The position numbers and the translations under genes were made by a program. Positions 10,447-26,686 of a stretch of 64,000 nt of DNA are shown piece after piece. Numbering within the stretch: the first letter of the stretch is position 1; the number at the start of each line of letters is the position of its first letter. Origin of the DNA: a virus; IMG/VR virus record IMGVR_UViG_3300020202_000064, positions 30,000-93,999 of that record; one strand, written 5' to 3'. A model generated the notes under the pieces. It was not told the DNA's origin and did no database searches. It saw only the letters and a program-made list of their open reading frames with translations.

Positions 10447-10560
10447 CTAAGCCCTTTTTTTTGGATGCTACCATTACATTAGAGCGGCTTCCAACTCCGC
10501 TTGCCGACTCGAACGGCTCTCCTTGTTTCGTAGACAATTTTTGTTTGCTGTATGGGCTAA
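10447..10560 (-). ncRNA. TAAG/CTTAG structured element F
   Basis: Minus-strand 5' end TTAGCCC-ATACAGC and 3' end GGGCTTAG pair (GCCC:GGGC), with an A-run just before the 3' strand. Inside is a T-arm-like hairpin GCCG-TTCGAGT-CGGC and an AGCGG/CCGCT helix, so a decayed tRNA may be embedded. It lies between tRNA-Thr(TGT) and the CAA tRNA. Confidence 0.5.
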
Positions 10561-10566
10561 TGGAAG

Positions 10567-10644
10567 TGGAGTTGACGGAGGCACTCGAAACCTCATGATA
10601 TCCTCTTTACAAGAGAGGTGCTTTTCCTCTTAAGCCACGTCAAC
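10567..10644 (-). tRNA. tRNA-Thr (TGT)
   Basis: Acceptor GTTGACG/CGTCAAC, U73, CCA; anticodon arm CCTCT-CTTGTAA-AGAGG gives UGU. Confidence 0.85.
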
Positions 10645-10703
10645 GTTAAATCGATACAAAATTTCGTGTAATCTAATTCGAGCCTAAATAAAGGATTCGA
10701 ATT

Positions 10704-11102
10704 ATGAATATTAAAGAACAATGTCTGAAACTAAAATCAGAAAATCCAAAAATGTATTATAAAGAAATCGCAAAGATTGTCGGGTGTCAACCAAGCACTG
10801 TTTGCTATCATTTGAATGAAGACACGAGAAAAAATTACCGACATCGCCAATCTAAAAACAGAAGAATTAATAATAATGCATTAAAAAGTGTTAACGGCGG
10901 TAAATGTAAACTTTGTGGTTACTGCAAATCTTTGTCCGCTCTGCATTTTCATCATTTAGACCCAGATACGAAAACCGATGAAGTTTCAAGAATATTGAGA
11001 ACGCGCGGAAAATTAGCAGCCACGAACGAAGCAAAAAAATGTATTCTTATTTGTGCTAATTGTCATCATGAAATCCACGACGGATTAATAAAATTAGAAT
11101 GA
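10704..11102 (+). CDS. HNH homing-type endonuclease with N-terminal HTH
   Basis: N-terminal HTH (YYKEIAKIVGCQPSTVCYHLN) and HNH core CKLCGYCKSLSALHFHHLDPDTK ... CILICANCHHEIHDG with paired CxxC zinc ligands. AAGGA about 11 nt upstream could serve as ribosome site. Plus strand, ends 3 nt before the 3' end of tRNA-Thr(CGT) on the other strand. Same architecture as the HNH gene at 9480 but a different HNH subtype. Confidence 0.88.
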   Translation: MNIKEQCLKLKSENPKMYYKEIAKIVGCQPSTVCYHLNEDTRKNYRHRQSKNRRINNNALKSVNGGKCKLCGYCKSLSALHFHHLDPDTKTDEVSRILRTRGKLAATNEAKKCILICANCHHEIHDGLIKLE

Positions 11103-11104
11103 AA

Positions 11105-11179
11105 TGGAGTCCCGTATCGAACTTGAATCGATTTATTCGCGTTACGAATGCGAGGCATCACCATCAATGCTTACAGGAC
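11105..11179 (-). tRNA. tRNA-Thr (CGT)
   Basis: Acceptor GTCCTGT/ACGGGAC, U73, CCA. Arm TCGCA-TTCGTAA-CGCGA gives CGU, with an A31-C39 apposition. Confidence 0.85.
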
Positions 11180-11337
11180 GAAAAATTATTTTCTTTGGCG
11201 ATTTCTAAATATGATTTTTCGCCGGGTTTTTGCTGTATAAAATAATCCAACACCCTTGCTATTTCAAGGGGGTCTGTTCCTCGCTCAACCGAAGTAATTG
11301 TTAACTCCAATAGTTCCTTTTTCTTTTGATTATTCAT
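11164..11337 (-). CDS. hypothetical protein, 57 aa
   Basis: Start MNNQKKKELLEL just after tRNA-Arg(TCT). Helical and charged, ends inside the 5' part of tRNA-Thr(CGT) on the same strand. That overlap with a tRNA lowers confidence; the clean start after the upstream tRNA supports it. Confidence 0.45.
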   Translation of the reverse strand: MNNQKKKELLELTITSVERGTDPLEIARVLDYFIQQKPGEKSYLEIAKENNFSSCKH

Positions 11338-11340
11338 AGA

Positions 11341-11417
11341 TGGCGCGACCAGCCCGATTCGAACGGGCACTAAAGCTACTTAGAAGGAAGCTTGACTTTC
11401 CAATTGCCGATGGTCGC
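11341..11417 (-). tRNA. tRNA-Arg (TCT)
   Basis: Acceptor GCGACCA/TGGTCGC, G73, CCA; T-arm GCCCG-TTCGAAT-CGGGC; loop CTTCTAA gives UCU. Confidence 0.9.
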
Positions 11418-11422
11418 AAAAA

Positions 11423-11653
11423 TTATTTATCGATTCTACGGATGGATTGATGTTCCTTAACGCGCATTTTGTCAAGTTCTTTCTGACTATAAATTTTGCG
11501 CACTGCTACACCAACATATTTCTTTGGCAGAAAACCAATTGCACAATGTAAACCGATGCGAAATGGAATCTCCGCAATCAACCTTTCGCTTTCTCGCTTG
11601 GCGGCGCTTTCCTCAAATTCGCCAATATTATCATCTACCATCCAATTTTTCAT
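11423..11653 (-). CDS. hypothetical protein, 76 aa
   Basis: Small charged protein (MKNWMVDDNIGEFEESAAKRESERL ... VRKIYSQKELDKMRVKE) filling the gap between two tRNAs. It starts 1 nt before the CCA end of the tRNA upstream. No family recognised. Confidence 0.55.
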   Translation of the reverse strand: MKNWMVDDNIGEFEESAAKRESERLIAEIPFRIGLHCAIGFLPKKYVGVAVRKIYSQKELDKMRVKEHQSIRRIDK

Positions 11654-11654
11654 A

Positions 11655-11749
11655 TGGTGGTTCCTGTCAGAATCGAACTGACGCTCGGCGGCAATCTACC
11701 GCATACAGGTTATAAATCTGTCGGTGCTCTCCAATTACACTAAGGAACC
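11655..11749 (-). tRNA. tRNA, Ile (TAT) with long variable arm
   Basis: Acceptor GGTTCCT/AGGAACC, A73, CCA, T-arm GTCAG-TTCGATT-CTGAC. Anticodon arm ACAGA-TTTATAA-CCTGT gives UAU. The variable region is 20-odd nt and folds as GCGG-TAGATTG-CCGC, unlike normal class I Ile tRNAs. Confidence 0.7.
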
Positions 11750-11870
11750 AAGCGAACCGTTTGCTTGAAGGCACTTTTACCCATCTACCCACAAACTTAA
11801 TTTTGCACCACGGTTCGACAGACAACTCACCCTCACATAACAGGTATTCTTCTGTGAGGGGACTAGCAAA
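11750..11870 (-). other. spacer with 7-bp hairpin
   Basis: No gene supported. The minus strand contains CCTCACA ... TGTGAGG, a 7-bp hairpin (about 11830-11860). It could be a processing or stability element between tRNA-Glu and the TAT tRNA. Confidence 0.3.
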
Positions 11871-11948
11871 TGGCATCCACGGTGAGCCTTGAACTCACAT
11901 ATGACCAACTTGAGAGGTTGGTGACTTTGCCAATTTGTCAACGTGGAC
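11871..11948 (-). tRNA. tRNA-Glu (CTC)
   Basis: Acceptor GTCCACG/CGTGGAT, G73, CCA; arm CCAAC-CTCTCAA-GTTGG gives CUC; T-arm GTGAG-TTCAAGG-CTCAC. Confidence 0.88.
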
Positions 11949-11960
11949 AAAAGGTCCAAC

Positions 11961-12224
11961 TTAATGAACTGATTTATCAGAAGGATTTTCTATACTTCTT
12001 TGAATTACTTTTGCACTTAGTAAGGTTAGCAAATAACTACCTAACGTTGCACCTACACTCGCGGGTATTTCCACAAGCGCGCCCGTCTTAATACAGGCGA
12101 ATAACCAGCCGCCGCAGATAGTTGTAAGAATCAGCATCGTACCAAGGAACACAACCAAACGTGTCGTGGAAGGGGTGTCAGGGGCTTCTTCCAAAGCCTT
12201 GCCTAACCAAGTAAAAAAGTTCAT
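11961..12224 (-). CDS. holin-like membrane protein, 87 aa
   Basis: Two hydrophobic helices (about residues 24-45 and 56-75) after a short amphipathic N-terminus (MNFFTWLGKALEEAPDTPSTTRL) and a polar C-tail. This is a frequent layout for phage holins and similar small membrane proteins. No lysin gene adjoins it, so the holin call is tentative. ATG lies 8 nt after the GTGTAA motif. Confidence 0.6.
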   Translation of the reverse strand: MNFFTWLGKALEEAPDTPSTTRLVVFLGTMLILTTICGGWLFACIKTGALVEIPASVGATLGSYLLTLLSAKVIQRSIENPSDKSVH

Positions 12225-12232
12225 AATCTGAA

Positions 12233-12238
12233 TTACAC
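12233..12238 (-). promoter_or_regulatory. GTGTAA motif before 11961-12224
   Basis: ACGTGTAATTCAGATT then ATG; 8-nt spacing to the start codon. Confidence 0.55.
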
Positions 12239-12259
12239 GTAAGAATCAATCATTTAGCA

Positions 12260-12342
12260 TGGTGGTCAAGGTGGGACTCGAACCCACAAGCCGAAGCATA
12301 TGCACCTCAAGCATACGTGTATGCCAATTTCACCACATGACC
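12260..12342 (-). tRNA. tRNA-Leu (GAG)
   Basis: Acceptor GGTCATG/CTTGACC (one T-T mismatch), A73, CCA; class II variable arm; arm TATGC-TTGAGGT-GCATA gives GAG. Confidence 0.88.
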
Positions 12343-12381
12343 ATAACGGATTTTAACGTAGAAAGCCGCAAACGCACAATA

Positions 12382-12660
12382 TCATGTCCAATCCCAAGCG
12401 TTATCTCTTGGTTCTCTGGGTAAATTAACTTCTTCCTCGTCTATATTTCCCGCGCGTAGGTTTTTTAGTTCCTGATTGCGCTCGGCGCGACGGGCGCGCT
12501 CTCTCATTTGTTTGTGCCATTTTGGCGATTTATCCCAACGCTTTTTATCGCGAGTAAATTTCCATTCTGGCGTATTGTCAACAAGCGGTTCTCCCCACAT
12601 CATTATAGTGGGGCGCTTGCCACGTAGTTTCCTATCGTCAAAACGGCGTGTTCTGCTCAT
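12382..12660 (-). CDS. basic hypothetical protein, 92 aa
   Basis: Start at MSRTRRFDDRKLRGK; the longer frame upstream would run through tRNA-His. Very basic (many Arg/Lys) with Trp-rich segments (PEWKFTRDKKRWDKSPKWHKQM), which suggests nucleic-acid binding. No family recognised. Confidence 0.55.
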   Translation of the reverse strand: MSRTRRFDDRKLRGKRPTIMMWGEPLVDNTPEWKFTRDKKRWDKSPKWHKQMRERARRAERNQELKNLRAGNIDEEEVNLPREPRDNAWDWT

Positions 12661-12700
12661 AGGAAGAAGCCTTTCGGCTGAGGTTTGTATTGGTAGAAGA

Positions 12701-12780
12701 TGGGGTATACGACGGGGCTTAAACCCGCAGGGACCAAGCTTCACAGGCTTGTGCGTCTAATCAATTTCGCCACGTATACC
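12701..12780 (-). tRNA. tRNA-His (GTG)
   Basis: Acceptor GTATACG/CGTATAC with G at -1 opposite C73, the His hallmark, and CCA encoded. Arm CAAGC-CTGTGAA-GCTTG gives GUG. Confidence 0.92.
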
Positions 12781-12784
12781 ATAA

Positions 12785-12913
12785 CTAAGTTCATTTTTAT
12801 ATTGTCGCCTAAACCAGACTAGGCTACTTCCGCATATTGTAAATGGTGCGGAAGGTGGGATTTGAACGCCACGTATAACAATTTCCATGAAATTGGATGC
12901 TGTTAGAACTTAA
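12785..12913 (-). ncRNA. element A: TAAG/CTTAG element enclosing permuted tRNA halves
   Basis: Minus-strand order: TTAAGTTC-TAACAGC, then a tRNA 3' half (ATTGT, T-arm with loop TTCAAAT, CTTCCGC, A, CCA), a 10-nt linker, then a tRNA 5' half (GCGGAAG, TA, D-arm GCC..GGC, G, ACAAT), then ATAAAAAT and GAACTTAG. GCGGAAG pairs with CTTCCGC and ACAAT with ATTGT, exactly as a tRNA acceptor and anticodon stem would. If joined, the loop could read ..TGGAA (Pro). The outer GTTC:GAAC helix closes the unit. Either a circularly permuted tRNA gene or the remnant of a tandem tRNA duplication that lost its outer halves. Confidence 0.6.
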
Positions 12914-12963
12914 ATTGGTTTTTGATTTTATTATAAATCGTCATTTTTCTTCGTGTAATCTTT

Positions 12964-12975
12964 TATGGCAGGACC
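12964..12975 (+). repeat. direct repeat of tRNA-Trp 3' end, left copy
   Basis: ATGGCAGGAC here is repeated at 13656-13665, where it is the 3' end of tRNA-Trp read on the opposite strand. The two copies flank the HNH gene. Confidence 0.6.
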
Positions 12976-12992
12976 ATAAGGATTCGAAAAAG

Positions 12993-13718
12993 ATGATTAA
13001 ACTATTTACTGATAAAGAATTTAATTCGGCTAAATCGCGGGATTTACTACCTCTTAAATGCGAAAAATGTGGAAAAACTTTCCACAAGGCAAAACACAGA
13101 ATACAGGATGCCTTATCGACCAAGACGAAGCTTTTCTGGAAATTTTGTTCTAAACGATGCAGTGATGAACACTTCGAAACATCCATAGAAGTCGAATGTT
13201 GCCAGTGCAAACGGAAAACATTCAAAACCCCGTCAGAGATAAAAAAAGTAAGACGCCCATTTTGTTCACAATCTTGTGCAGCTTTATATAACAACACGCA
13301 TAAAACACACGGAACATCTCGTTCAAAACTAGAAAAATGGTTGGAATCTAAATTAATAACTGAATATCCCGAATTAGAATTTCATTTCTCAAGAAAAGAT
13401 GCTATCAACGGTGAACTAGATATTTATATTCCATCATTAAAATTGGCATTTGAGTTAAACGGGATTTTCCATTATGAACCAATTTATGGTAAGGAACAAT
13501 TAATCAAAATGCAGAACAACGATAAACGAAAGTTCCAAGCGTGTTTAGAAAATGGAATAGAACTATGTATTATAGATACAACGTCTCAAAAGTATTTTAA
13601 AGAAAATACCTCTTTAAAATTTCTTAATATCATCCGAGATATAATCGAAAGAAAAATGGCAGGACATGTAGGTGAGGAACCCACTTCTTCGCGTTTGGAG
13701 TGCGAGGCACATACCTAA
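12993..13718 (+). CDS. HNH-associated/zinc-finger endonuclease-like protein, 241 aa
   Basis: Start at MIKLFTDKEF, with AAGGA upstream; the earlier in-frame ATG lies inside element A. N-terminal half has treble-clef-like zinc fingers (LKCEKCGKTFHKAKHR, FCSKRCSDEHF, VECCQCKRKTFKT, FCSQSCAALYN). The C-terminal part (LEKWLESKL, INGELDIYIPSLKLAFELNGIFHYEP, LCIIDT) is a PD-(D/E)XK/Vsr-like nuclease core rather than HNH (D, E-x-N). So this is a homing-type nuclease with a Vsr-like catalytic domain. Its last about 20 codons run antisense through tRNA-Trp, and a 10-nt repeat of the tRNA end flanks it, suggesting insertion at the tRNA. Confidence 0.75.
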   Translation: MIKLFTDKEFNSAKSRDLLPLKCEKCGKTFHKAKHRIQDALSTKTKLFWKFCSKRCSDEHFETSIEVECCQCKRKTFKTPSEIKKVRRPFCSQSCAALYNNTHKTHGTSRSKLEKWLESKLITEYPELEFHFSRKDAINGELDIYIPSLKLAFELNGIFHYEPIYGKEQLIKMQNNDKRKFQACLENGIELCIIDTTSQKYFKENTSLKFLNIIRDIIERKMAGHVGEEPTSSRLECEAHT

Positions 13719-13732
13719 TATACCAATGTCCT
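13657..13732 (-). tRNA. tRNA-Trp (CCA)
   Basis: Acceptor AGGACAT/ATGTCCT, G73, CCA; arm TCGCA-CTCCAAA-CGCGA gives CCA anticodon, with A31-C39 apposition. Overlapped on the other strand by the end of the nuclease gene. Confidence 0.88.
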
Positions 13733-13738
13733 ATAAAG

Positions 13739-13900
13739 TCATTTCTGACCATCTAAATATTTCTTGAACGCATCTTGATTTTTAATCGCCGCCCGAAGTT
13801 CTGGCGTCGTATCATCAATATACAACGGACATTGTACTGGTTCGTGATAACAGCCTTCGGCCAATATTTCTTTTATTTCTTCAATAGTCGTCTGATTCAT
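13739..13900 (-). CDS. hypothetical protein, 53 aa
   Basis: Start MNQTTIEEIKEILAEG directly after tRNA-Arg(TCG) on the same strand. Acidic, helical. No family recognised; the longer frame upstream runs through the tRNA. Confidence 0.5.
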   Translation of the reverse strand: MNQTTIEEIKEILAEGCYHEPVQCPLYIDDTTPELRAAIKNQDAFKKYLDGQK

Positions 13901-13903
13901 AAT

Positions 13904-13980
13904 TGGTGCAAATGGAAGAAATCGAATCCTCAGTATAACTACGTTCGAAGCGTAGGTGGCTCTCCTGTGCCAGCATTTGC
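13904..13980 (-). tRNA. tRNA-Arg (TCG)
   Basis: Acceptor GCAAATG/CATTTGC, A73, CCA; arm CTACG-CTTCGAA-CGTAG gives UCG. Confidence 0.9.
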
Positions 13981-14011
13981 GTGTTTTAATTTTAGCTACG
14001 TATGTATTAAA

Positions 14012-14088
14012 TGGTGGGGGCCGAGCGAATTGAACGCTCACATCAAGATTTTCAATCTAGCATGCTCACCAGTTTACATCAAACCCCC
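14012..14088 (-). tRNA. tRNA-Phe (GAA)
   Basis: Acceptor GGGGGTT/GGCCCCC, A73, CCA; loop TTGAAAA gives GAA; T-arm GAGCG-TTCAATT-CGCTC. Confidence 0.88.
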
Positions 14089-14237
14089 AAAGGCTAGCAG
14101 CCACCCCACAACTTCGGGTATGTGACACCTGAAAGTCGGTTTCGCGCTATGCGCTAATCAAACACCGAACCTTTCCTTTATTGTAGTCCTTGTGGACTAT
14201 CCTTTCCTTTTCCTTACCTACGGTATTTAACCATAGG
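14089..14237. other. spacer with hairpins
   Basis: No gene. Contains TAGTCC-TTGT-GGACTA (about 14185-14200), a 6-bp hairpin, and GCGCTATGCGCTAA, which loosely resembles the 5' part of the TAAG elements but has no partner strand. Confidence 0.3.
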
Positions 14238-14423
14238 TTATGCGCGGTTACCAGCCGCGACTTTATATCCCGGTAACCAGCCGGGAAATTTGTGAAATTT
14301 ATACATAAACGGCGGATTTAATTCGTCATTCATTCTGTTACAGTGTTCTCTGAGTAATCTTTTTAAATATACAGACTTAATCCATTGGTCTATAAACTCG
14401 CGCGCTTTATCTTGTTTATTCAT
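14238..14423 (-). CDS. hypothetical protein, 61 aa
   Basis: MNKQDKAREFIDQWIKSVYLKRLLREHCNRM..., a helical basic start with a Pro/Gly-rich C-terminus (FHKFPGWLPGYK). No family recognised. Fits between tRNA-Phe and the TAA tRNA. Confidence 0.5.
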   Translation of the reverse strand: MNKQDKAREFIDQWIKSVYLKRLLREHCNRMNDELNPPFMYKFHKFPGWLPGYKVAAGNRA

Positions 14424-14541
14424 GAATATACTGGTGTGTCTTTTCGTTGGTCTCCGACTAAAATCAATATTGCTTTGACCGCCTCAGTGAAGATATTCTA
14501 TTCATCGGGTTTTCTGCGACCCACTCTCCTTTTATATTCAT

Positions 14542-14618
14542 TGGTAGTCGCAATGGGATTCGAACCCATACTGAAAAGTTTTTAAGACTTTTGCTTCTGC
14601 CGGTTGAGCGATGCGACC
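14542..14618 (-). tRNA. tRNA, anticodon TAA (Leu), short variable loop
   Basis: Acceptor GGTCGCA/TGCGACT, A73, CCA; arm AAAGT-CTTAAAA-ACTTT gives UAA; T-arm ATGGG-TTCGAAT-CCCAT. The variable loop is five bases, not the long arm normal for Leu. Confidence 0.8.
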
Positions 14619-14623
14619 ATAGC

Positions 14624-15187
14624 TTATTTCAGAGGGAATGCAACTGTATTTGTTGGGGCGCTATTGCCAGAAGAATTATAAGCGAACACACGATACCAAT
14701 ATGTACCAACGCCTATATTCGTATCAATAAATGTATTTATGTTAGCTGAAGTCGTACCTATAACAACAAAATTTTCCCCATCATTACTACGCTCTATTTT
14801 AAAACCAGTTTCGTTGCTGGAATTATCACTCCAAGTTAATGTTACTGACGATGGGACGCTTCTAACACTCACACTTTCTAATTTTAAATATGTATATAAA
14901 CTGTCAATTTTTCGCAATACTGTTTGTAAATCTGTATTTGTATTATTTTGATTTTCCTTCAAAGCCGCTAACTCTTGCAATGCCAAATCTCTCTCTTGTT
15001 GAGCTTGCGCTACAAGCTTTTCTTGATACACAGCATATAAATGCCATGCTATAATCTGAGAATTTTTTGCATCCCACGCGGATTGTGCTGGATAAGCGGG
15101 GCGAGGAACGGGGGTAATAGATGTAACTTGAGCTAATAAAACACTCGCCAAAGCAACAACGAAGAAACTAATAAGAATTTTTTTCAT
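14624..15187 (-). CDS. secreted protein with coiled coil and fibronectin type III domain
   Basis: Start MKKILISFFVVALASVLLAQ, a Sec signal peptide (about 20 residues; the Ala-Gln end fits cleavage). A Gln/Glu/Leu-rich coiled coil follows (about 60-100), then a Fn3 domain (VPSSVTLTWSDNSSNETGFKIERSNDGENF ... YWYRVFAYNSSGNSAPTNTV). Phage Fn3 domains usually bind carbohydrate or cell surface on virion proteins; a signal peptide on one is less usual and suggests export from the infected cell. It sits between tRNAs. Confidence 0.8.
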   Translation of the reverse strand: MKKILISFFVVALASVLLAQVTSITPVPRPAYPAQSAWDAKNSQIIAWHLYAVYQEKLVAQAQQERDLALQELAALKENQNNTNTDLQTVLRKIDSLYTYLKLESVSVRSVPSSVTLTWSDNSSNETGFKIERSNDGENFVVIGTTSANINTFIDTNIGVGTYWYRVFAYNSSGNSAPTNTVAFPLK

Positions 15188-15196
15188 AAAACAACT

Positions 15197-15272
15197 TGGT
15201 GCGATATAGGAGATTTGAACTCCTACCCCATGCTTGGAAGGCGCGTGTGCTGCCATTAAACACTAATATCGC
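15197..15272 (-). tRNA. tRNA-Gly (TCC)
   Basis: Acceptor GCGATAT/ATATCGC, A73, CCA; loop CTTCCAA gives UCC; T-arm AGGAG-TTCAAAT-CTCCT. Confidence 0.88.
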
Positions 15273-15282
15273 AAAATGGGTA

Positions 15283-15438
15283 TTAGCCCAAGATAAATCC
15301 GAGTACGAAAGCAACTACTGTCGAAATTAACGTCACTTTCATGCTAACCTGCTTGGCAAGAAACTGCTGAGTTTCCTCTTTGGCTTCATGCTTTAAGCGC
15401 GCTTTTGCCTCTTCAACGTGTTCTTTTAAATCGCTCAT
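15283..15438 (-). CDS. small tail-anchored membrane protein, 51 aa
   Basis: Frame MSDLKEHVEEAKARLKHEA ... with a single C-terminal transmembrane helix (LISTVVAFVLGFILG). The charged helix before it may be a coiled coil. A GTGTAA motif at 15462-15467 precedes the start by 23 nt. Confidence 0.55.
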   Translation of the reverse strand: MSDLKEHVEEAKARLKHEAKEETQQFLAKQVSMKVTLISTVVAFVLGFILG

Positions 15439-15461
15439 AGTATTGTTATGTTCAATCTAAA

Positions 15462-15467
15462 TTACAC
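15462..15467 (-). promoter_or_regulatory. GTGTAA motif before 15283-15438
   Basis: AAAGTGTAATTTAGATT, 23 nt upstream of the start codon. Confidence 0.5.
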
Positions 15468-15586
15468 TTTAAACTAGGGGCTTTACTCTAGCCCGACGGT
15501 ACAACAATCCACTGTTGCCATTGCGCCGCTTTTACATTAGCGGCAGAAAGCCCGCACATTTAAGCTGGCGGGGACTAACTATAGTC

Positions 15587-15662
15587 TGGTGGGCATGGCA
15601 GGAATCGAACCCGCAATCTTCACCGTGTAAAAGTGCCGCGTTAACCGTTACGCTACACGCCC
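15587..15662 (-). tRNA. tRNA-Val (TAC)
   Basis: Acceptor GGGCGTG/CATGCCC, A73, CCA; loop TTTACAC gives UAC; T-arm GCGGG-TTCGATT-CCTGC. Confidence 0.87.
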
Positions 15663-16081
15663 ATTTTCTATTCCAGTTTAGCCGCGATTCTGGTTTATCT
15701 CTACATTTCTCTAATCGGCTTTCGCCAATTCCCACCGTCAATAGATGGGTGCATCAACCCGGCCTCATCGATAAGCACTAATCTCAGCCTGTTTGACTTG
15801 CTACTACCATGAGGTATTAACGAATACGTGATAGGCTATGGTTTGTAAGCCATGCCGAGTATTCTCCCTATCGGTTGCTTTGTAGTCGCGAACTTCCTCT
15901 GACTTATGGAATGCGGGGTTCCTCTCTTTCGAGTTTGGCATACCGCATCTTACGTCCCTTTACGCACCATTCTCAGGCCGTGGCCTGATTAAAGGTTTCA
16001 CCTTTCGTCAGCGTAGAGTCGAATAGAAATTTTGCACCCCGGACGTAACAATCTATAGTCATTGGAATCCGGCCCGTCTCC
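15663..16081 (-). other. 418-nt spacer, highly structured
   Basis: No coding frame is supported. Hairpins include TCAGGCC-GT-GGCCTGA directly followed by AAAGGT-TTC-ACCTTT (15973-16004), AATGCGG..CCGCAT (about 15920-15950), and a tRNA-like patch near 15810-15880 with ATGG-CTTACAAA-CCAT inside GATAGG..CCTATC. It may hold a decayed tRNA or a structured ncRNA. Confidence 0.35.
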
Positions 16082-16567
16082 CTATAGTGTTTGTGCGGCC
16101 ACCCTCGACCGTAAAGTAAATTCATAATGAAGCATCGTTGAACGGGACAATAACCCCGGCGACACTTCCCAAGCTTTCGTATTATTTAGTAAAGAAATTC
16201 CTGCGTGTTCAAACGCCGCATAAATCAATTCAGAGCAAAACCACTTGTCTTTCGAACCGCCCGATTCAGATTCACGAGAAAGGAAACGAAGTACCATGGT
16301 AATGTCGTACTTCTTACCCACTTGAGCATAAAGGAACTGGCTGATTTTACGGAATTGTTCCGACGTAACTTCAGTCGAATACATATCAATATATTCGTCC
16401 TTCTTAAATTTGTACTTCTGGAATTTACGAACACCGTAAAAACGGGTGGCCTCAATTACGTCTTTTTCCAATGATATACTTACATGTGAATATTTACTAC
16501 GAGTTTGCCAACGAATAATTTTATCAAAAATAGAGTTAGCTGAATGTAATCCAATGTAGATTTTCAT
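16082..16567 (-). CDS. permuted NlpC/P60 (YiiX-like) cysteine hydrolase
   Basis: SKYSHVSISLEKDVIEATRFYGV gives the conserved His and following acidic/strand element, and DKWFCSELIYAAFEHAGISL gives the Cys in the circularly permuted NlpC/P60 order (His first, Cys late). QVGKKYD between them is also typical. Family members are amidases or acyltransferases that act on peptidoglycan or lipids. The gene stops with TAG, rare in this window and notable because the next gene upstream is a CUA tRNA; read-through would add 27 residues before a TGA. ATG is 8 nt after a GTGTAA motif. Confidence 0.8.
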   Translation of the reverse strand: MKIYIGLHSANSIFDKIIRWQTRSKYSHVSISLEKDVIEATRFYGVRKFQKYKFKKDEYIDMYSTEVTSEQFRKISQFLYAQVGKKYDITMVLRFLSRESESGGSKDKWFCSELIYAAFEHAGISLLNNTKAWEVSPGLLSRSTMLHYEFTLRSRVAAQTL

Positions 16568-16575
16568 ACATTAAG

Positions 16576-16581
16576 TTACAC
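16576..16581 (-). promoter_or_regulatory. GTGTAA motif before 16082-16567
   Basis: TTTAGTGTAACTTAATGT then ATG, 8-nt spacing; lies just after the CCA of the CUA tRNA. Confidence 0.55.
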
Positions 16582-16587
16582 TAAATT

Positions 16588-16665
16588 TGGCGCGGGAGGT
16601 GGGCTTCGAACCCACAACCTTGAAATTTAGAGTTTCCTGCTCTGAACCAGTTGAGCTACTCCCGC
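16588..16665 (-). tRNA. putative amber-suppressor tRNA (anticodon CTA)
   Basis: A fully canonical tRNA: acceptor GCGGGAG/CTCCCGC, T8 A9, D-arm GCTC..GAGC with GG, T-arm GTGGG-TTCGAAG-CCCAC, G73, CCA. Standard numbering places C34-T35-A36 in loop CTCTAAA between GGAAA and TTTCA, so the anticodon is CUA, which reads UAG. G73 would fit Gln. The adjacent gene at 16725-17003 has two in-frame TAG codons. Charging identity is unknown. Confidence 0.85.
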
Positions 16666-16724
16666 AATAAGCCCGAATAAATCGGGCACTAAATTACTAT
16701 TTCTACGATGTATCCTATTTCAAA
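16666..16724 (-). other. short hairpin spacer
   Basis: Contains GCCCG-AATAAAT-CGGGC (16670-16687), a 5-bp hairpin between the CUA tRNA and the recoded small gene. Confidence 0.35.
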
Positions 16725-20250: not shown

Positions 20251-20288
20251 AATCAGCTTCTATCAACCAGTCAATTTTAAAGCTGATT
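20251..20288 (-). other. 9-bp hairpin in spacer
   Basis: AATCAGCTT ... AAGCTGATT pair perfectly over 9 bp around a 20-nt loop. The rest of 20191-20347 shows no gene. Confidence 0.35.
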
Positions 20289-20347
20289 CCCGATGATGAC
20301 GAGTGGCCCAATTTATCGGCGGTCAATTGGAACTCGGTTAGCCGCAA

Positions 20348-20467: not shown

Positions 20468-20482
20468 CCCCAAAAGAAATAT

Positions 20483-20560
20483 TGGTGCGCCCCGAGGGAG
20501 TTGAACCCTCACGATGGTCCGCTTAAAAGGCGGCTGCTCGTCCACTGTAGCTTGAGGCGC
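20483..20560 (-). tRNA. tRNA-Lys (TTT)
   Basis: Acceptor GCGCCTC/GGGGCGC, A73, CCA; loop CTTTTAA gives UUU; T-arm GAGGG-TTCAACT-CCCTC. Confidence 0.9.
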
Positions 20561-20569
20561 ATATTAAAA

Positions 20570-20644
20570 TGGAGTCCCTAGCGGCTTACGAGACCGCGTA
20601 TGAATCTTTTGCAGAGATTTGCATTTCCTCTTTGCTATAGGGAC
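20570..20644 (-). tRNA. tRNA-Cys (GCA)
   Basis: Acceptor GTCCCTA/TAGGGAC, U73, CCA; arm AATCT-CTGCAAA-AGATT gives GCA. T-loop CTCGTAA is slightly unusual. Confidence 0.87.
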
Positions 20645-20652
20645 ATAAAAAT

Positions 20653-20755
20653 TGGCGGAAGAGGCAAGATTCGAACTCGCACGCGCTATGGTTTACATAT
20701 CGCCCTCGCATTTCAAGTGCGCTGCCGCTAGGCCATATCCTCGGCTTACTCTTCC
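20653..20755 (-). tRNA. tRNA-Ser (TGA), enlarged arms
   Basis: Acceptor GGAAGAG/CTCTTCC, G73, CCA; loop CTTGAAA gives UGA. D-loop is large and the variable arm has an 8-bp stem GCGATATG/CATAGCGC with one mismatch, making 103 nt. Confidence 0.87.
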
Positions 20756-20757
20756 AT

Positions 20758-20817
20758 CTAAGCGGGCGCAATTTTCCCTTTCGGGATGGCGATTTATATT
20801 TTGCTGTATCCGCTTGT
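20758..20817 (-). ncRNA. TAAG/CTTAG structured element H (short)
   Basis: Ends ACAAGCGG-ATACAGC and CCGCTTAG pair (GCGG:CCGC). Interior has CCC-GAAA-GGG. 60 nt, directly before tRNA-Ser(TGA) on the minus strand. Confidence 0.55.
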
Positions 20818-20873
20818 TGCTTTAATTGCGCGAAATCTTAAAACCTTCGGTTTTATTATAAATCGAAGATTTA

Positions 20874-20950
20874 TGGTGGCCGAGGGTGGGTTTGAACCAC
20901 CAACCGTTCGTCTATCAAACGAATGCACTAGCCAATTGTGCTACACGGCC
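20874..20950 (-). tRNA. tRNA-Ile (GAT)
   Basis: Acceptor GGCCGTG/CTCGGCC, A73, CCA; arm TTCGT-TTGATAG-ACGAA gives GAU; T-arm GGTGG-TTCAAAC-CCACC. Confidence 0.9.
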
Positions 20951-20955
20951 ATTAT

Positions 20956-21049
20956 CTAAGCTCTATTATTGTGCGGGCATCGAATCCCGCTCAATTCGTG
21001 TTTTTGAAACGAATTTTTATCCATTTAAGGTTTTGCTGTGAGAGCTTAT
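20956..21049 (-). ncRNA. TAAG/CTTAG structured element I with tRNA-like arms
   Basis: Ends ATAAGCTC-TCACAGC and GAGCTTAG pair (GCTC:GAGC). Inside are ATTCGT-TTCAAAAAC-ACGAAT (anticodon-arm-like) and GCGGG-ATTCGATG-CCCGC (T-arm-like) but no D-arm, acceptor stem or CCA. Confidence 0.55.
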
Positions 21050-21088
21050 TGTGGAGCTTACTCCACCGTTCCAGCAAAGCTGGAAATA
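21050..21088 (-). other. two tandem hairpins
   Basis: TTCCAGC-TTT-GCTGGAA then GTGGAG-TAAG-CTCCAC lie between elements J and I. No U-run follows, so not a classical terminator; possibly an RNA processing or stability element. Confidence 0.4.
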
Positions 21089-21146
21089 CTAAGCGCATTT
21101 TGTTTTTCATTAATCATTGAATTTTTAATTCGCTGTTAGCGCTTAT
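21089..21146 (-). ncRNA. TAAG/CTTAG structured element J (short)
   Basis: Ends ATAAGCGC-TAACAGC and GCGCTTAG pair (GCGC:GCGC). Interior GAATT-AAA-AATTC then A-rich. 58 nt; a near-minimal form of the family. Confidence 0.6.
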
Positions 21147-21163
21147 AAGGAAACGAAAACTTG

Positions 21164-21319
21164 TTATGTTTTTGGCTTCTGATTCGAAGCATATTTGACG
21201 AAACGTTTATAATTTTTTAAATCGCGGCTAGCGTCTGTGCGCCGGGAATATGGACCGTAATCTAAATCCCCCCATTGATTTTTAAACCAAAACTTTCCAT
21301 CTCGCTTGAAAATTTTCAT
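21164..21319 (-). CDS. small basic protein, 51 aa
   Basis: MKIFKRDGKFWFKNQWGDLDYGPYSRRTDASRDL...: a compact basic protein with aromatic strands, resembling small phage AP2-like or DUF proteins. Follows tRNA-Asp; no recognised family. The same style of start appears in the 71-aa protein at 2948-3163. Confidence 0.55.
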   Translation of the reverse strand: MKIFKRDGKFWFKNQWGDLDYGPYSRRTDASRDLKNYKRFVKYASNQKPKT

Positions 21320-21328
21320 ACTCTAAAA

Positions 21329-21403
21329 TGGCGGGACCAACGAGTGCTACCCTCGCTTCTGTATCGTGACAGGATACCGCTTTTGTTGATAAGCTATGGC
21401 CCC
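21329..21403 (-). tRNA. tRNA-Asp (GTC)
   Basis: Acceptor GGGGCCA/TGGTCCC, G73 (Asp determinant), CCA; arm GTATC-CTGTCAC-GATAC gives GUC. D-loop lacks GG and T-loop is GGTAGCA, so the usual D/T-loop contact is absent. Confidence 0.8.
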
Positions 21404-21509
21404 AAAATTACAAAGGTCACTCCATCCCTTTGAATGGCAGTTTATAAACGTGGAAACGTTTAAAGGTTTTATTTTTCGCCGGTTCTGCTTTACCCTGAAC
21501 CTAGAGAAG

Positions 21510-21589
21510 TTGGTAGCGCGTGTGGGGCTCGAACCCACGCATGACCGATTTGAAAGACCGGTGACTTGAACCTGCTTGTCAAACGCGCC
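21510..21589 (-). tRNA. tRNA-Glu (TTC)
   Basis: Acceptor GGCGCGT/ACGCGCT, A73, CCA; arm CCGGT-CTTTCAA-ATCGG gives UUC; T-arm GTGGG-TTCGAGC-CCCAC. Confidence 0.88.
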
Positions 21590-21710
21590 GTAAAGATATT
21601 CTTTTGTATCCATCTATTCGGATTAACAACAACCCCAATGTTCGATACAAATAAACTACAATAACAGTTGTTTTTGATATATTATTATAGAAGAACTGAG
21701 GTGGAAATAA

Positions 21711-21724
21711 GTGTAATTACACTA
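21711..21724 (+). promoter_or_regulatory. palindromic GTGTAA motif before HNH at 21726
   Basis: AGTGTAATTACACT is a perfect 14-nt palindrome; the ATG of the HNH gene is 9 nt after GTGTAA. Confidence 0.55.
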
Positions 21725-21725
21725 T

Positions 21726-22301
21726 ATGTCCACTAAAATATTATCTGAATTTTCTCGATGTGACTCCTTTGGAACGCAGCGTAAATACGTTTCTTACCAT
21801 TGTACTCGATGCGGTGTCGAACATTCCAAACCAAAACGTAACTTTTGGTTAGATAGACCCAACTTCTGTTCCGTTAACTGTGCAAGAGAACATCAAAAAA
21901 TTTTGCATTCATTTGAAGCTGAGTGCGCATGGTGCGCAAATAAATTCCACAAAAAGATATCAACAAAGGGAAATAGTCGTTCCGGTTTATATTTTTGTTC
22001 CAGACTATGCAAAGACAAGGCTCAAAGCTTGGAAGGTGGTATAAAGGAAATACAGCCAAATCATTACGGAGAAATTAAAAAGAATTATCGCGAAACTGCA
22101 TTTAAAAATCTGCCAGCACGCTGTAATCGATGCGACTTTGCTGCTTACCCAGAGATACTAGAGGTTCATCACAAAGACCATAATCACCATAATAATACCG
22201 TAGATAATTTGGAAATTTTATGTCCAAACTGCCACGAAATTCATCACTTCGAAACGAAATCGGGTAAATATGCCAAAAGTGGTGGACTGGAAGGGGATTG
22301 A
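21726..22301 (+). CDS. HNH homing-type endonuclease with zinc fingers, 191 aa
   Basis: N-terminal zinc fingers (YHCTRCGVEHSKPKRN, FCSVNCAREH, ECAWCANKFHKK, YFCSRLCKDKA) resemble those of the nuclease at 12993. The C-terminal HNH core is CNRCDFAAYPEILEVHHKDHNHHNNTVDNLEILCPNCHEIHHF with HH, N and N. Plus strand. Its last codons are antisense to the 3' end of tRNA-Ala, so it terminates inside that tRNA. Confidence 0.9.
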   Translation: MSTKILSEFSRCDSFGTQRKYVSYHCTRCGVEHSKPKRNFWLDRPNFCSVNCAREHQKILHSFEAECAWCANKFHKKISTKGNSRSGLYFCSRLCKDKAQSLEGGIKEIQPNHYGEIKKNYRETAFKNLPARCNRCDFAAYPEILEVHHKDHNHHNNTVDNLEILCPNCHEIHHFETKSGKYAKSGGLEGD

Positions 22302-22355
22302 ACCCTCCACACGAACATTGCAAATGTCTGTCGCCTCCGAGGAACATGCCAGCCC
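22280..22355 (-). tRNA. tRNA-Ala (TGC)
   Basis: Acceptor GGGCTGG/CCAGTCC with G3-U70, the Ala identity pair, A73, CCA. Loop TTTGCAA gives UGC; T-arm GAGGG-TTCAATC-CCCTT. Confidence 0.9.
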
Positions 22356-22358
22356 AAC

Positions 22359-22435
22359 TGGTGTTTCCACTCGGAATTGAACCAAGATGATACAGTTTAG
22401 GAAACTGTTGCCTTATCCAGTTAGGCGATGGAAAC
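22359..22435 (-). tRNA. tRNA-Arg (CCT)
   Basis: Acceptor GTTTCCA/TGGAAAC, A73, CCA; arm ACAGT-TTCCTAA-ACTGT gives CCU; T-arm CTTGG-TTCAATT-CCGAG. Confidence 0.9.
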
Positions 22436-22436
22436 G

Positions 22437-22670
22437 TTAACTCAAAATTACACCCAAATCATTAACTTCGTTTTCAAACTCGTCGAACGTCGGTTCAATA
22501 TCTTCCATTGAGGCATCGATTCTTTTCTGCTTCATGCGACGATACTGAGTGTGACAGACTGCCAATCTTTGTTTATCATTACCATATTCCTTTTGCATCA
22601 AATCCGAATCCATACAACGATTGATGAATTCAGTCTGTTTTTCATTGGACTTTGGTGTAGGCAGTGGCAT
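22437..22670 (-). CDS. conserved small phage protein, 77 aa (MPLPTPKSNE...RLAVCHTQYRR type)
   Basis: The start MPLPTPKSNEKQTEFINRCMDSDLM followed by EYGNDKQRLAVCHTQYRR is a pattern widespread in phage capsid or portal neighbourhoods and as stand-alone genes, with the conserved Cys pair of RCM...AVC. Function unknown. Here it sits inside the tRNA array. The ATG is 8 nt after a GTGTAA motif. Confidence 0.75.
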   Translation of the reverse strand: MPLPTPKSNEKQTEFINRCMDSDLMQKEYGNDKQRLAVCHTQYRRMKQKRIDASMEDIEPTFDEFENEVNDLGVILS

Positions 22671-22678
22671 ACACTATA

Positions 22679-22684
22679 TTACAC
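22679..22684 (-). promoter_or_regulatory. GTGTAA motif before 22437-22670
   Basis: TTTAGTGTAATATAGTGT then ATG; 8-nt spacing. Confidence 0.6.
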
Positions 22685-22700
22685 TAAATGTCACCTAAAA

Positions 22701-22787
22701 TGGTGGTCCCGGTGGGATTTGAACCCACAGTGCCCGAAGGCGGCAGATTTACAGTCTGCTACGTCTACCAATTGACGCGTCGTGACC
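22701..22787 (-). tRNA. tRNA-Tyr (GTA)
   Basis: Acceptor GGTCACG/CGGGACC (one mismatch), A73, CCA; class II variable arm as in bacterial Tyr; arm GCAGA-CTGTAAA-TCTGC gives GUA. Confidence 0.92.
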
Positions 22788-22945
22788 ATCATACGAACTA
22801 CGGTACATATGATTTATCATCACCCCAATGCCTTGGGCCGATTTTTTGCGAGGTTGTACATTCCTCCGTTCGTATTCTGTATTAGGGATGCCTCCCTTTT
22901 AACATATGAGAGATAGGTGAGTTAATTACACTCACTTATCTTTGA
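22788..22945 (-). other. spacer with possible tiny gene
   Basis: A GTGTAA motif (22926-22931) is followed on the minus strand by GGAGGA and a 13-codon ATG frame (MYNLAKNRPKALG), or by a longer protein-like frame (RTEECTTSQKIG...) that is cut by a stop after its ATG. Neither is secure. Confidence 0.3.
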
Positions 22946-23040
22946 CTAAGTATATTTTTATCACCCCATAAATTTGAAATGGCGGGGTGTGAAGGAATTG
23001 AACCTTCTGTTTCCAGAAAAGTCATGCTGTTAATACTTAA
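22946..23040 (-). ncRNA. TAAG/CTTAG structured element B with tRNA 3' end
   Basis: Ends TTAAGTAT-TAACAGC and ATACTTAG pair (GTAT:ATAC). It starts directly after the CCA of tRNA-Arg(ACG). Inside: TTCTG-GAAA-CAGAA, T-arm GAAGG-TTCAATT-CCTTC, then CACCCC-GCCA, a linker, GGGGTG and ATAAAAAT. CACCCC/GGGGTG pair as an acceptor across the linker, as in element A, but no D-arm is present. Confidence 0.6.
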
Positions 23041-23117
23041 TGGTGCGGTCAGAGGGACTCGAACCCCCACTAAAAGATTCGTAATCTTTCGTGCTAATTC
23101 CATTACACTATGTCCGC
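23041..23117 (-). tRNA. tRNA-Arg (ACG)
   Basis: Acceptor GCGGACA/TGACCGC (one A-A mismatch), A73, CCA; arm AAAGA-TTACGAA-TCTTT gives ACG, presumably edited to ICG by a host deaminase. Confidence 0.9.
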
Positions 23118-23167
23118 ATATCGACGGGCCTACCCGCCGTGGTTTAACCAATTTTTAGGAAAAATAA

Positions 23168-23291
23168 CTAAGTTCGTTTTTTTCGTTGTTCTGCTTTAAA
23201 CTAACTTGCTGAAATTGAAATTGGTGGCAAGTGAAGTGCGCTACGCTCCATCTCCGTCTTATGTGATGATTTAACCGCTGTTAGAACTTAA
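23168..23291 (-). ncRNA. TAAG/CTTAG structured element C
   Basis: Ends TTAAGTTC-TAACAGC and GAACTTAG pair (GTTC:GAAC). It starts directly after the CCA of tRNA-Pro. Inside, ACTTGCC-A-CCA, a linker and GCAAGT..GTT..AAC suggest a second permuted tRNA-like arrangement, though the anticodon stem halves do not obviously match. Confidence 0.55.
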
Positions 23292-23365
23292 TGGTCCACC
23301 TAGAAAGATTCGAACTTTCACCTTACCGCCCCAAACGGTAAACGCTGCCTTTACGCTATAGATGG
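23292..23365 (-). tRNA. tRNA-Pro (TGG)
   Basis: Acceptor CCATCTA/TAGGTGG with C1-G72 typical of Pro, A73, CCA; arm TACCG-TTTGGGG-CGGTA gives UGG; T-arm GAAAG-TTCGAAT-CTTTC. First tRNA of the array in the direction of transcription. Confidence 0.9.
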
Positions 23366-24911: not shown

Positions 24912-24918
24912 AATAAAA

Positions 24919-25065
24919 TTATTGAGCCATCAGACCACCAAGCGCAATGCCGCCGATTAGAGTAAATCCAATGTCGTTTTGAATACCACCAGCAATGATG
25001 AACACAGCCGCAATTAATCCTAAAATCACGGCCCTAAACAAATCGTGTAGTTTCTTCTGCGTCAT
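24919..25065 (-). CDS. small membrane protein, 48 aa
   Basis: MTQKKLHDLFRAVILGLIAAVFIIAGGIQNDIGFTLIGGIALGGLMAQ has two short hydrophobic, Gly-rich helices. It lies between the vWA gene terminator and the FkbM gene; no family recognised. Confidence 0.5.
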   Translation of the reverse strand: MTQKKLHDLFRAVILGLIAAVFIIAGGIQNDIGFTLIGGIALGGLMAQ

Positions 25066-25078
25066 AAATAATGAAACC

Positions 25079-25101
25079 CGTCGCTGTTATACGACGGGAA
25101 T
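25079..25101 (-). terminator. terminator after the Ro60-like gene
   Basis: CCCGTCG-TATAACAG-CGACGGG on the minus strand, 7-bp stem followed by TTTCATTATT. Lies 9 nt past the stop of the vWA gene. Confidence 0.6.
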
Positions 25102-25109
25102 CAGTTTCC

Positions 25110-26645
25110 TTAAGCCTTAATCGGTTCGTACCTTTCGGTATTCACCGTCTGCAAGAACATGTCCCATGGGGAAGTAATCTTGCCACTCATAATTGTCTTG
25201 AGGATGCTTGGGGAAGCACCCGAACACAACATGACACCCTTTTCGTCAAACTTCACCGGACTGTCTGAGTAGGCGTTAACCTGCCAGAATACAATATCAG
25301 GAAGTTTATATCCTGCTTGCGCATATTGCCGCTTAATTGCTTCGTGGTTTGTTCCACCATTAACACAATTAAACTGCATATCAGATATGATAACAATCTT
25401 TGATGGCATTTCAGACTGTGGCACGTTATTTTGGATAGCGTGGCGAAGAATTGCTTGGAACGAAGATTGTACATTCGTGGAGCCGCCCCAATCAGCCGAA
25501 TTAAGGTTAATCAATTTCTCCTTGAGATTTCCGCCAACAACCTTCTGCAAACGGGAGTCGTCTGAGAAAGTTAGGAAATAACCGTTGAATGCGCCGCGAT
25601 TACGCTCTGCCGTATAAAGGGCGAGTGAAACGCAGATATCGATTGGGCTTACACTTTCGCCATAACGAACACCCAAATTTCCCATGGAGCCGGAAACGTC
25701 CGCAACAACAAGGATATTGTCGTTCTTCCCTTCTGTGTAGTCGGGAAGTGCATTCCATTGCGCTTCGATTGTACGAAGGTCGTTACCGTCCTTCTGTGTA
25801 ATTCCGCGCATCAAATCATACGGATATAGCGTTGCAGAATTAATCTTCGCTTCGCCCTTCTCGACCTTGGTCAAGAACTTCTCATAGCGCTTTGGGTCGT
25901 GCTTGTTAAAGGCAGACTTGTAAATAAGCGCAGCACGAGATGGTACTTGCTCAAAGTTAATCTTGCTCCATTCACCACTGGTCATCAACCGTTCAACGAT
26001 ACCGATTTCCTCACGAAGACCGGACAACATCTTACGATATGCCTTTGGTGACATTTTCATTGCGGCGCGAACCTTTTCAGCCAAACGACGTGTCGTCGCG
26101 CTGGAAGCCTGCGCAGATGGTGCCCATTTTGCAGCCAATGTAATCGCTTCGCCCTTTGCCTTCTTATAAGCATCGGTCTTCAATTGGGACGCAACGAAAA
26201 CCAATGCATCCTTCTCCAATGGAGTGCCCTCCAAGGATTCAAGAACATTGTCGAAACGGGTATATTCAGGAACGTGCTGAATAAGCTTCTTTGCCACAGG
26301 CGCGTCATTCTTCGCGAGCCAGTTAAGACCCAAGCGAAAAAGACGACGTTCACCCTGTCCGCCGCGCACGTCACCCAAATAGAATAACGTCCTTAGTGCA
26401 AGGGTTTTATCTTCTGCATATGCGGCGCTGAAAAGCTTTGTAACTTCGGCATCGGCTTGATTGCGCAATGCGCCACCTCGCGAGAACAAGTCCAGCAAGG
26501 ATGTGCCAGTGGTTGAATGTGATACTGCGCCGTTTAAGGTTGTAGTATCTTTCGTTTGCATAGCGCTAATAAGCGCATTCTGCTTCTTAGGGGTTGCAGT
26601 GTTACGGGTAAACTGCCCCAATGAGTTTCTCTTTATATTCTTCAT
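25110..26645 (-). CDS. Ro60/TROVE-like (DUF2828-type) protein with vWA domain
   Basis: 511 aa. N-terminal helical repeat region: GDVRGGQGERRLFRLGLNWLA (about 91-111), LAAKWAPSAQASSATTRRLAEKVRAAMKMSPKAYRKMLSGLREEIGIVERLM (about 170-221), VPSRAALIYKSAFNKHDPKRYEKFL (234-258), all characteristic of DUF2828/TROVE proteins. C-terminal vWA domain has the MIDAS motif DVSGSMG (D316). Ro60 proteins bind misfolded RNAs and Y RNAs, which carry tRNA-like modules. Being encoded next to a very large tRNA array, and just downstream of a TAAG/CTTAG element, makes an RNA-quality role attractive (inference). A terminator follows. Confidence 0.85.
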   Translation of the reverse strand: MKNIKRNSLGQFTRNTATPKKQNALISAMQTKDTTTLNGAVSHSTTGTSLLDLFSRGGALRNQADAEVTKLFSAAYAEDKTLALRTLFYLGDVRGGQGERRLFRLGLNWLAKNDAPVAKKLIQHVPEYTRFDNVLESLEGTPLEKDALVFVASQLKTDAYKKAKGEAITLAAKWAPSAQASSATTRRLAEKVRAAMKMSPKAYRKMLSGLREEIGIVERLMTSGEWSKINFEQVPSRAALIYKSAFNKHDPKRYEKFLTKVEKGEAKINSATLYPYDLMRGITQKDGNDLRTIEAQWNALPDYTEGKNDNILVVADVSGSMGNLGVRYGESVSPIDICVSLALYTAERNRGAFNGYFLTFSDDSRLQKVVGGNLKEKLINLNSADWGGSTNVQSSFQAILRHAIQNNVPQSEMPSKIVIISDMQFNCVNGGTNHEAIKRQYAQAGYKLPDIVFWQVNAYSDSPVKFDEKGVMLCSGASPSILKTIMSGKITSPWDMFLQTVNTERYEPIKA

Positions 26646-26648
26646 AAA

Positions 26649-26686
26649 CTAAGTAATTTTTAATTGTTAATGCTGACATTACTTAA
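26649..26686 (-). ncRNA. TAAG/CTTAG element K (minimal), upstream of the Ro60-like gene
   Basis: TTAAGTAAT-GTCAGC ... AATTAAAA-ATTACTTAG: the terminal strands pair over 9 bp around a 20-nt loop. 38 nt, ending 3 nt before the vWA gene start codon. It keeps (A/T)CAGC and the A-rich stretch. Position suggests a cis-acting mRNA element. Confidence 0.6.

Follow-up and report, generated by a model that had tools for sequence, protein, structure and literature searches.

The window analysed here, 64,000 nucleotides of viral DNA (bases 30000–93999 of the 93,999-base virus record IMGVR_UViG_3300020202_000064; coordinates below are those of the window), carries eleven structured elements, A to K, on its minus strand. 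All are closed by a helix between their two ends, referred to below as the handle. The partner of the Ro60 protein is the Y RNA. Because a gene with a predicted Ro60 fold adjoins the elements, and because the same elements stand beside the Ro genes of other phages, they are very probably Ro-linked phage Y RNAs. Binding of the handle by Ro, production and excision of the elements as RNAs, and what these RNAs do are further inferences.

The closing helix and its covariation

An original prediction, made from the letters of the window, had placed eleven minus-strand elements in this region, ten of them in a tRNA array. All eleven are found at those positions, on that strand and with lengths of 37–147 nt, and only K lies outside the array. 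The plus strand of the window holds no such element, and a covariance model finds none in the 30 kb of the virus record that precede the window. The closing helix comprises 7–8 bp and is perfect in nine of the eleven elements, with a single mismatch each in A (T·T at pair 2) and F (C·A at pair 1). The 5′ motif is spaced as TAAG-N3-(2 nt)-ACAGC, and element K has GTCAGC instead. Outside the motif there is almost no sequence similarity between the copies.

The pairing of the ends was tested on every minus-strand TAAG-N3-N0-4-ACAGC motif (n=8), picked blind to the downstream sequence, by looking within 180 nt for an exact 7-nt complement followed by G. All eight motifs have their own complement with the G, while none of 46 cross pairs finds that of another element, and only 18 of 2000 random windows hold a matching complement with G. 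The covariation score in the window is 0.551 compared to 0.149 ± 0.045 after shuffling, a value reached in none of 500 shuffles, and double changes are seen at 3 of the 7 helix pairs. The co-varying ends on which the original prediction was built thus do not pair at the rate of chance, and the eleven-element observation is confirmed as real. Moreover, the covariation, the strand bias and the conservation across unrelated phages together argue for a selected RNA fold, as had been claimed, and not for a simple repeat.

A Ro60-like gene and the same elements in other phages

The open reading frame (ORF) at 25110..26645 on the minus strand encodes a Ro60-like protein of 511 amino acids (phrog_850). 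It stands just upstream of the tRNA array and heads the same-strand run into it. Its match to phrog_850, an RNA-binding protein family, has E=3.7e-138. Homologues in mycobacteriophages are annotated as “Ro-like RNA binding protein”, and the same Ro is carried by 676 phage records. The residues D316, S318 and S320, which make up the DxSxS motif of the vWA MIDAS, are invariant in 20 homologues. A direct search of the ORF sequence against the PDB gave one chance match only. An AlphaFold2 model was built from seven sequences (predicted local distance difference test score 74.8, predicted template modelling score 0.66), and a Foldseek search of the PDB with this model returned seven matches at E≤1e-3, all of them Ro proteins. 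These include a TROVE domain (1.3e-8), the Ro60 of Thermus phage phiLo (1.6e-7), Rsr of Deinococcus radiodurans (1.1e-6) and the Ro autoantigen with RNA (Ro60; 3.4e-6). On this model, the ORF is predicted to have the Ro60/TROVE fold, a helical-repeat ring with a vWA domain.

Elements with the same handle occur near Ro genes elsewhere. In 83 viral Ro loci totalling 1.40 Mb, a descriptor consisting of a URR stem, CAGC within 5 nt and a 3′ YYAG matches 79 times on the Ro strand versus 16 times on the opposite strand, and 6–23 times when its motif is permuted as a control. Fourteen short elements from other phages, with the window left out, were used to build a covariance model (R1). Their covariation score is 0.782 versus 0.292 ± 0.048 shuffled, and 6 of the 7 pairs show double changes, a count that leans towards the helix since the 14 were chosen partly by the pairing descriptor. 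The original prediction had proposed a covariance model of the eleven copies as a check; the present model, from other phages, recovers three elements of the window at E≤1e-3, namely H (45.3 bits, E=5.6e-8), G (27.7 bits, E=6.5e-4) and C (27.0 bits, E=9.4e-4), followed by F (16.5 bits), I (15.7 bits) and K (15.5 bits) as the next best. Across 79 viral Ro loci, all 63 covariance-model matches at E≤0.1 fall on the Ro strand, and a 105 kb control sequence without Ro gives no match.

When two exact handle patterns were sought in 2.9 million viral contigs, three contigs matched. In the first, whose Ro has 52% identity, the Ro leader holds two elements and a further one lies beyond; the second has a Ro of 41% identity and about 10–12 elements among 24 tRNAs. 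The third contains an array of 18 tRNAs, in which a single element separates tRNA-Val from tRNA-Trp. The descriptor also finds seven elements in each of two Ro loci, L151 and L167. Since these two loci and the contig with 10–12 elements all have tRNA arrays, multi-copy element sets in tRNA arrays are a recurring arrangement. In the mycobacteriophages MiniLon, Itos and AvadaKedavra, three tandem copies stand directly behind Ro. In phages of Listeria and Staphylococcus, the element was found by the covariance model and has a shorter end (…CYUG), which the strict descriptor missed. Felix O1-like phages yield weak covariance-model candidates only, and bacterial contigs with a phage-type Ro show less enrichment (23 versus 21), with clear clusters in few.

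Some neighbouring features were seen along the way. A contig labelled Methanobrevibacter, an archaeon, has Y-like elements at 3547–3620 and 3653–3729 of locus L097 together with a phage-type Ro, and may be viral or wrongly binned. Behind the Ro genes of Citrobacter phage Ci1 (L010, 20015–20128) and Synechococcus phage B23 (L007, 19896–20005) there are features annotated as undetermined or pseudo-tRNAs; these are tRNAs in the usual order whose anticodon arm contains long inserts.

Elements and interiors within the tRNA array

The tRNA array spans 6992..23365 on the minus strand and contains 31 tRNAs called by ARAGORN, further Rfam tRNA matches and a transfer-messenger RNA (tmRNA). All elements listed here are likewise on the minus strand, and each is given with its two helix strands and the motif that follows the first. 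Element A (10447..10560, 114 nt; TTAGCCC/GGGCTTA+G, ATACAGC) occupies the gap between tRNA-Thr and tRNA-Leu, and element B (12785..12912, 128 nt; TAAGTTC/GAACTTAG, TAACAGC) lies 5 nt before tRNA-His. Element C (19180..19258, 79 nt; TAAGTTC/GAACTTAG, ATACAGC) again occupies a gap between two tRNAs. Element E (19588..19729, 142 nt; TAAGTATA/TATACTTAG, TACAGC) has its first base directly after the CCA of tRNA-Ser, and element D (19437..19583, 147 nt; TAAGCGC/GCGCTTAG, ATACAGC) follows in tandem behind it. Element F (20758..20816, 59 nt, a short type; CAAGCGG/CCGCTTAG, ATACAGC) lies 2 nt before a Ser/Sec-like tRNA (20657–20755). Element H (21089..21145, 57 nt, also a short type; TAAGCGC/GCGCTTAG, TAACAGC) is in tandem with element G (20956..21048, 93 nt; TAAGCTCT/AGAGCTTAG, CACAGC), which lies 5 nt before tRNA-Ile. 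Element I (22946..23039, 94 nt; TAAGTAT/ATACTTAG, TAACAGC) lies 1 nt after tRNA-Arg, and element J (23168..23290, 123 nt; TAAGTTC/GAACTTAG, TAACAGC) lies 1 nt after tRNA-Pro.

Eight of the ten array elements have a tRNA end within 7 nt, a number that random placement did not approach (at most five in 20,000 trials). The 3′ end of an upstream tRNA adjoins A, C, E, I and J, and the 5′ end of a downstream tRNA adjoins A, B, C, F and G. The original prediction had B, C and G starting at or after a tRNA CCA, where of these three C alone adjoins an upstream tRNA 3′ end, and its tandem arrangement of G and E is to be replaced by two pairs, E–D and H–G. This packing against tRNA ends suggests that tRNA processing releases the elements from the array transcript.

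The tRNA-like arms that had been noticed in A, B and I can be specified as circularly permuted tRNAs, most clearly in B and I and probably also, with weaker evidence, in J and A. The tRNA inside element B has its halves exchanged, the 3′ one (T arm, ...CTTCCGC-ACCA) standing before the 5′ one (GCGGAAG..., with the D arm GCCTAGTCTGGTTTAGGC); a loop therefore closes the acceptor stem, and the shared helix takes the place of the anticodon arm. Its acceptor (7/7) and D arm were read by eye, and an irregularity in the T stem makes it fail a strict automated test for permuted tRNAs. Element I passes this test (T stem 5/5, acceptor 6/7; shuffle rate 0.3%) with a permuted acceptor and T arm (GAAGG-TTCAATT-CCTTC ACACCCC-GCCA ... 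GGGGTG) and no D arm. Element J has an acceptor-like GCAAGT/ACTTGC-CACCA in permuted order, whose stem is present in the minimum-free-energy fold. In element A a T-loop-like GTTCGAGT accompanies partial acceptor pairing, and its reading as a permuted tRNA is tentative; element G has a T arm alone, in the hairpin GCGGG-ATTCGAT-GCCCGC. No tRNA-like module is found in C, D, E, F, H or K, of which C, F, H and K are short and D and E long, D having a structured interior that is not clearly tRNA-like. Among other phages, the strict test is passed by the middle elements of the MiniLon, Itos and AvadaKedavra triads and by four from the relative G002.

The elements could have originated as Y RNAs and yet serve mainly to decoy anticodon nucleases or other defences that attack tRNAs, a version compatible with the Y RNA explanation rather than a denial of it. 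A large tRNA array and an RNA ligase (4585..5589, minus strand; PF09414), a possible functional partner, are found in one genome, and the idea has been raised that the tRNA-like domain of YrlA may inhibit an anticodon nuclease (PMC7790460). However, the tRNA-like copies are only some of the set and have no anticodon loop, and a decoy role leaves the short copies and the shared handle unexplained, so that this role appears improbable as the principal one.

The well-formed permuted tRNAs of the four G002 elements, and the CCA or GCCA that B, I and J keep after the acceptor strand with the 3′ half before the 5′ half, would also suit genes for two-piece tRNAs or tRNA-like RNAs with a role in translation, comparable to the permuted tRNAs of algae and archaea and to two-piece tmRNA. 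Yet the handle replaces the anticodon arm in every copy, which led to the rejection of a functional permuted tRNA. Several copies have no tRNA part, the CCA is not retained in relatives (L037, 12417 and 9655), and the handle tracks Ro genes. The Rfam model of permuted tmRNA, another rejected candidate, has no match on the elements. A role in translation is therefore very unlikely.

Less likely still is that the elements are processing signals or spacers of a polycistronic tRNA transcript, such as RNase III sites or terminators. Most of them do fill or border tRNA gaps, but most tRNA gaps contain no element, and elements also occur behind or before Ro with no tRNA nearby (L012, L027 and L038). 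In addition, different phages conserve both the single-stranded ACAGC(A)A and the G at the end, and interiors of up to 147 nt would be superfluous for a cleavage site. The poorest account is one at the DNA level, in which palindromic ends, many copies and sites between the cassettes of the tRNA array would mark inverted-repeat mobile elements or recombination sites for tRNA cassettes acting as folded single-stranded DNA; it is hardly credible, as mobile-element copies would share sequence where these have unrelated interiors and co-varying ends, all copies are on one strand and share the orientation of the tRNAs and Ro, tRNA folds occur in some interiors, and no transposase or integrase was seen among the ORFs examined. 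The same strand bias, covariation and unrelated interiors ruled out attC-like elements and miniature inverted-repeat transposable elements.

Other features of the array include an ordinary one-piece tmRNA gene at 20122–20471 (minus strand; Rfam RF00023, 92.1 bits) and a tRNA with a CUA anticodon at 16588–16665 (minus strand), which ARAGORN calls tRNA-Pyl and which is likely an amber suppressor. At 19263–19400 (minus strand), a 138-nt Rfam tRNA match (42.8 bits) has a long insertion, and ARAGORN makes no call there.

Relation to known Y RNAs and proposed working

In bacteria, the Y RNA YrlA is 90–150 nt long; it tethers Rsr by a large stem that its 5′ and 3′ ends form, and D, T and acceptor arms make up its tRNA-like domain (PMC8394870). 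The elements resemble YrlA and YrlB in their 5′/3′-end stem, in the adjoining gene with a predicted Ro60 fold, in the permuted tRNA-like module that some of the long copies appear to contain, and in the presence of long and short types side by side. Bacteria have one or two such RNAs beside rsr, while here there are eleven, distributed through a tRNA array. Two-piece tmRNA (RF04321) also has swapped acceptor halves and a long closing helix; the elements differ from it in having no tag reading frame and no Rfam match, and the phage has its separate, ordinary tmRNA.

Several points weigh against the Y RNA identity. The Pfam TROVE profile (PF05731) does not match the Ro ORF, and a profile search of the PDB is weak (E 0.09–0.55), though TROVE/Ro60 chains stand at its top. 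The AlphaFold2 model, from its seven sequences, is of moderate quality, and the Foldseek root-mean-square deviations are 7–10 Å; the Ro identity of the ORF is drawn from its fold and the annotation of its relatives. Since the TROVE profile misses the ORF, and DUF2828 and DUF7788 are its Pfam matches instead, the window Ro is a divergent Ro branch. On the RNA side, model R1 derives from short elements and gives the long ones low scores or none, and the strict permuted-tRNA test is passed in the window by I only, with B, J and A read by eye. Finally, where permuted-tRNA RNAs adjoin cellular TROVE genes in Mycobacteriales, their stem is unlike the handle. The phage stem is URRGNNN/NNNCYYAG followed by ACAGC(A)A, whereas the cellular permuted tRNA sits in a stem of GGCCGG..GATCGGTTACC / CCGGTCAC.. 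type. Because of this difference in stem sequence, the elements are classed, by sequence, as a separate Y RNA branch and not as YrlA. The cellular Mycobacteriales TROVE genes with adjoining permuted-tRNA RNAs are those of L201–L203, L205, L206 and L208, where Rfam sees no Y RNA.

The original prediction had found no named RNA family for the elements. This remains correct for Rfam, whose models (Y_RNA, tmRNA_permuted, GOLLD and others) give no gathering-score match on the elements and none at E≤10, and the mycobacteriophage triads have no Rfam match either. It does not hold more widely, since the neighbour with the predicted Ro60 fold and the copies at phage Ro loci name them as Y RNAs. Self-cleaving ribozymes and group I introns were rejected, with no Rfam match at E≤10 and unrelated interiors.

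Y RNAs in phages are, as such, already known. They are mentioned as having been found bioinformatically in bacteria and mycobacteriophages (PMC12282133, citing Chen et al. 2014). The mycobacteriophage RNAs share the handle and the Ro family (loci L009, L012 and L027), and the middle one of three is a full permuted tRNA; they form three compact copies right behind Ro, compared to eleven here, spread among tRNAs with one in the Ro leader. For Listeria phage CKA15, Y RNAs have been proposed and none defined (PMC12282133). In its record (L210, OR088597.1), three like elements lie at 25289–25552, directly upstream of the Ro-like gene CKA15_055 (record 23695–25215), which adjoins tRNA genes. Record positions 26,236–26,727 are among the regions with most RNA-seq reads and the only one given coordinates (PMC12282133). 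No such element lies within them, so that they point to another noncoding RNA, and PMC12282133 does not confirm expression of the elements. The CKA15_055 protein is present in purified CKA15 particles, with 20 peptides and 57% coverage (PMC12282133 Table 1), and Ro ribonucleoprotein particles may travel with the virion. New here are the eleven copies (10–12 in one relative), the packing against tRNA ends, a closing helix unlike the cellular one, the absence of an Rfam family, and the position of K over the Ro start.

In the proposed working, the paired ends would form a shared handle, U-R-R-G-NNN ... ACAGC(A)A ... A-rich ... NNNC-Y-Y-A-G, bound by the adjoining Ro60-like protein. RNase P and 3′-end nucleases would cut the elements from the array transcript. 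The handle could enclose little (F, H, K and C), a complete or partial permuted tRNA (B, I and probably J and A, with a T arm only in G), or another structure (D and E). It would dock on Ro as in bacterial Ro/YrlA particles, while the interior would recruit or mimic a partner such as PNPase or another nuclease, tRNA enzymes or damaged tRNA. The varying interiors could thereby give one Ro protein many specificities. Given the D. radiodurans model of Rsr, Y RNA and PNPase and the anatomy of the elements, they may be interchangeable adaptors for one RNA-handling machine, with a Ro handle and a variable effector part.

Element K (26649..26685, minus strand, 37 nt, minimal; TAAGTAAT/ATTACTTAG, GTCAGC) stops 4 nt short of the Ro ATG, at the site expected for a Shine-Dalgarno sequence, and none is seen there. 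The distance to the Ro ATG is 11 nt for the end of a degenerate handle in G001 and about 9 nt for that of a handle in cyanophage B23, and in all three phages the handle overlaps the Ro start region. In several other, unrelated phages, the handle ends 16–54 nt before the Ro start and a Shine-Dalgarno sequence follows it. From the placement of these sequences, autoregulation of Ro through a leader handle is a plausible idea, and for most leader handles simple co-transcription is the plainer reading. The combined proposal, that one Ro uses many exchangeable Y RNA adaptors made by tRNA processing and that Ro unoccupied by Y RNA represses its own translation via K, is tentative and somewhat doubtful. 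Degenerate Y-like hairpins 4–11 nt before the Ro start, a possible Ro operator, are located at 26649–26685 of the window, 5763–5812 of L038 and 17968–18020 of L007.

The handle consensus and the covariance model allow Y RNAs to be annotated beside hundreds of phage Ro genes, where Rfam finds nothing. Few bacterial and phage Y RNAs vary informatively. With one Ro and eleven putative partners in which the docking helix stays constant and the rest is exchanged, the adaptor model becomes directly testable.

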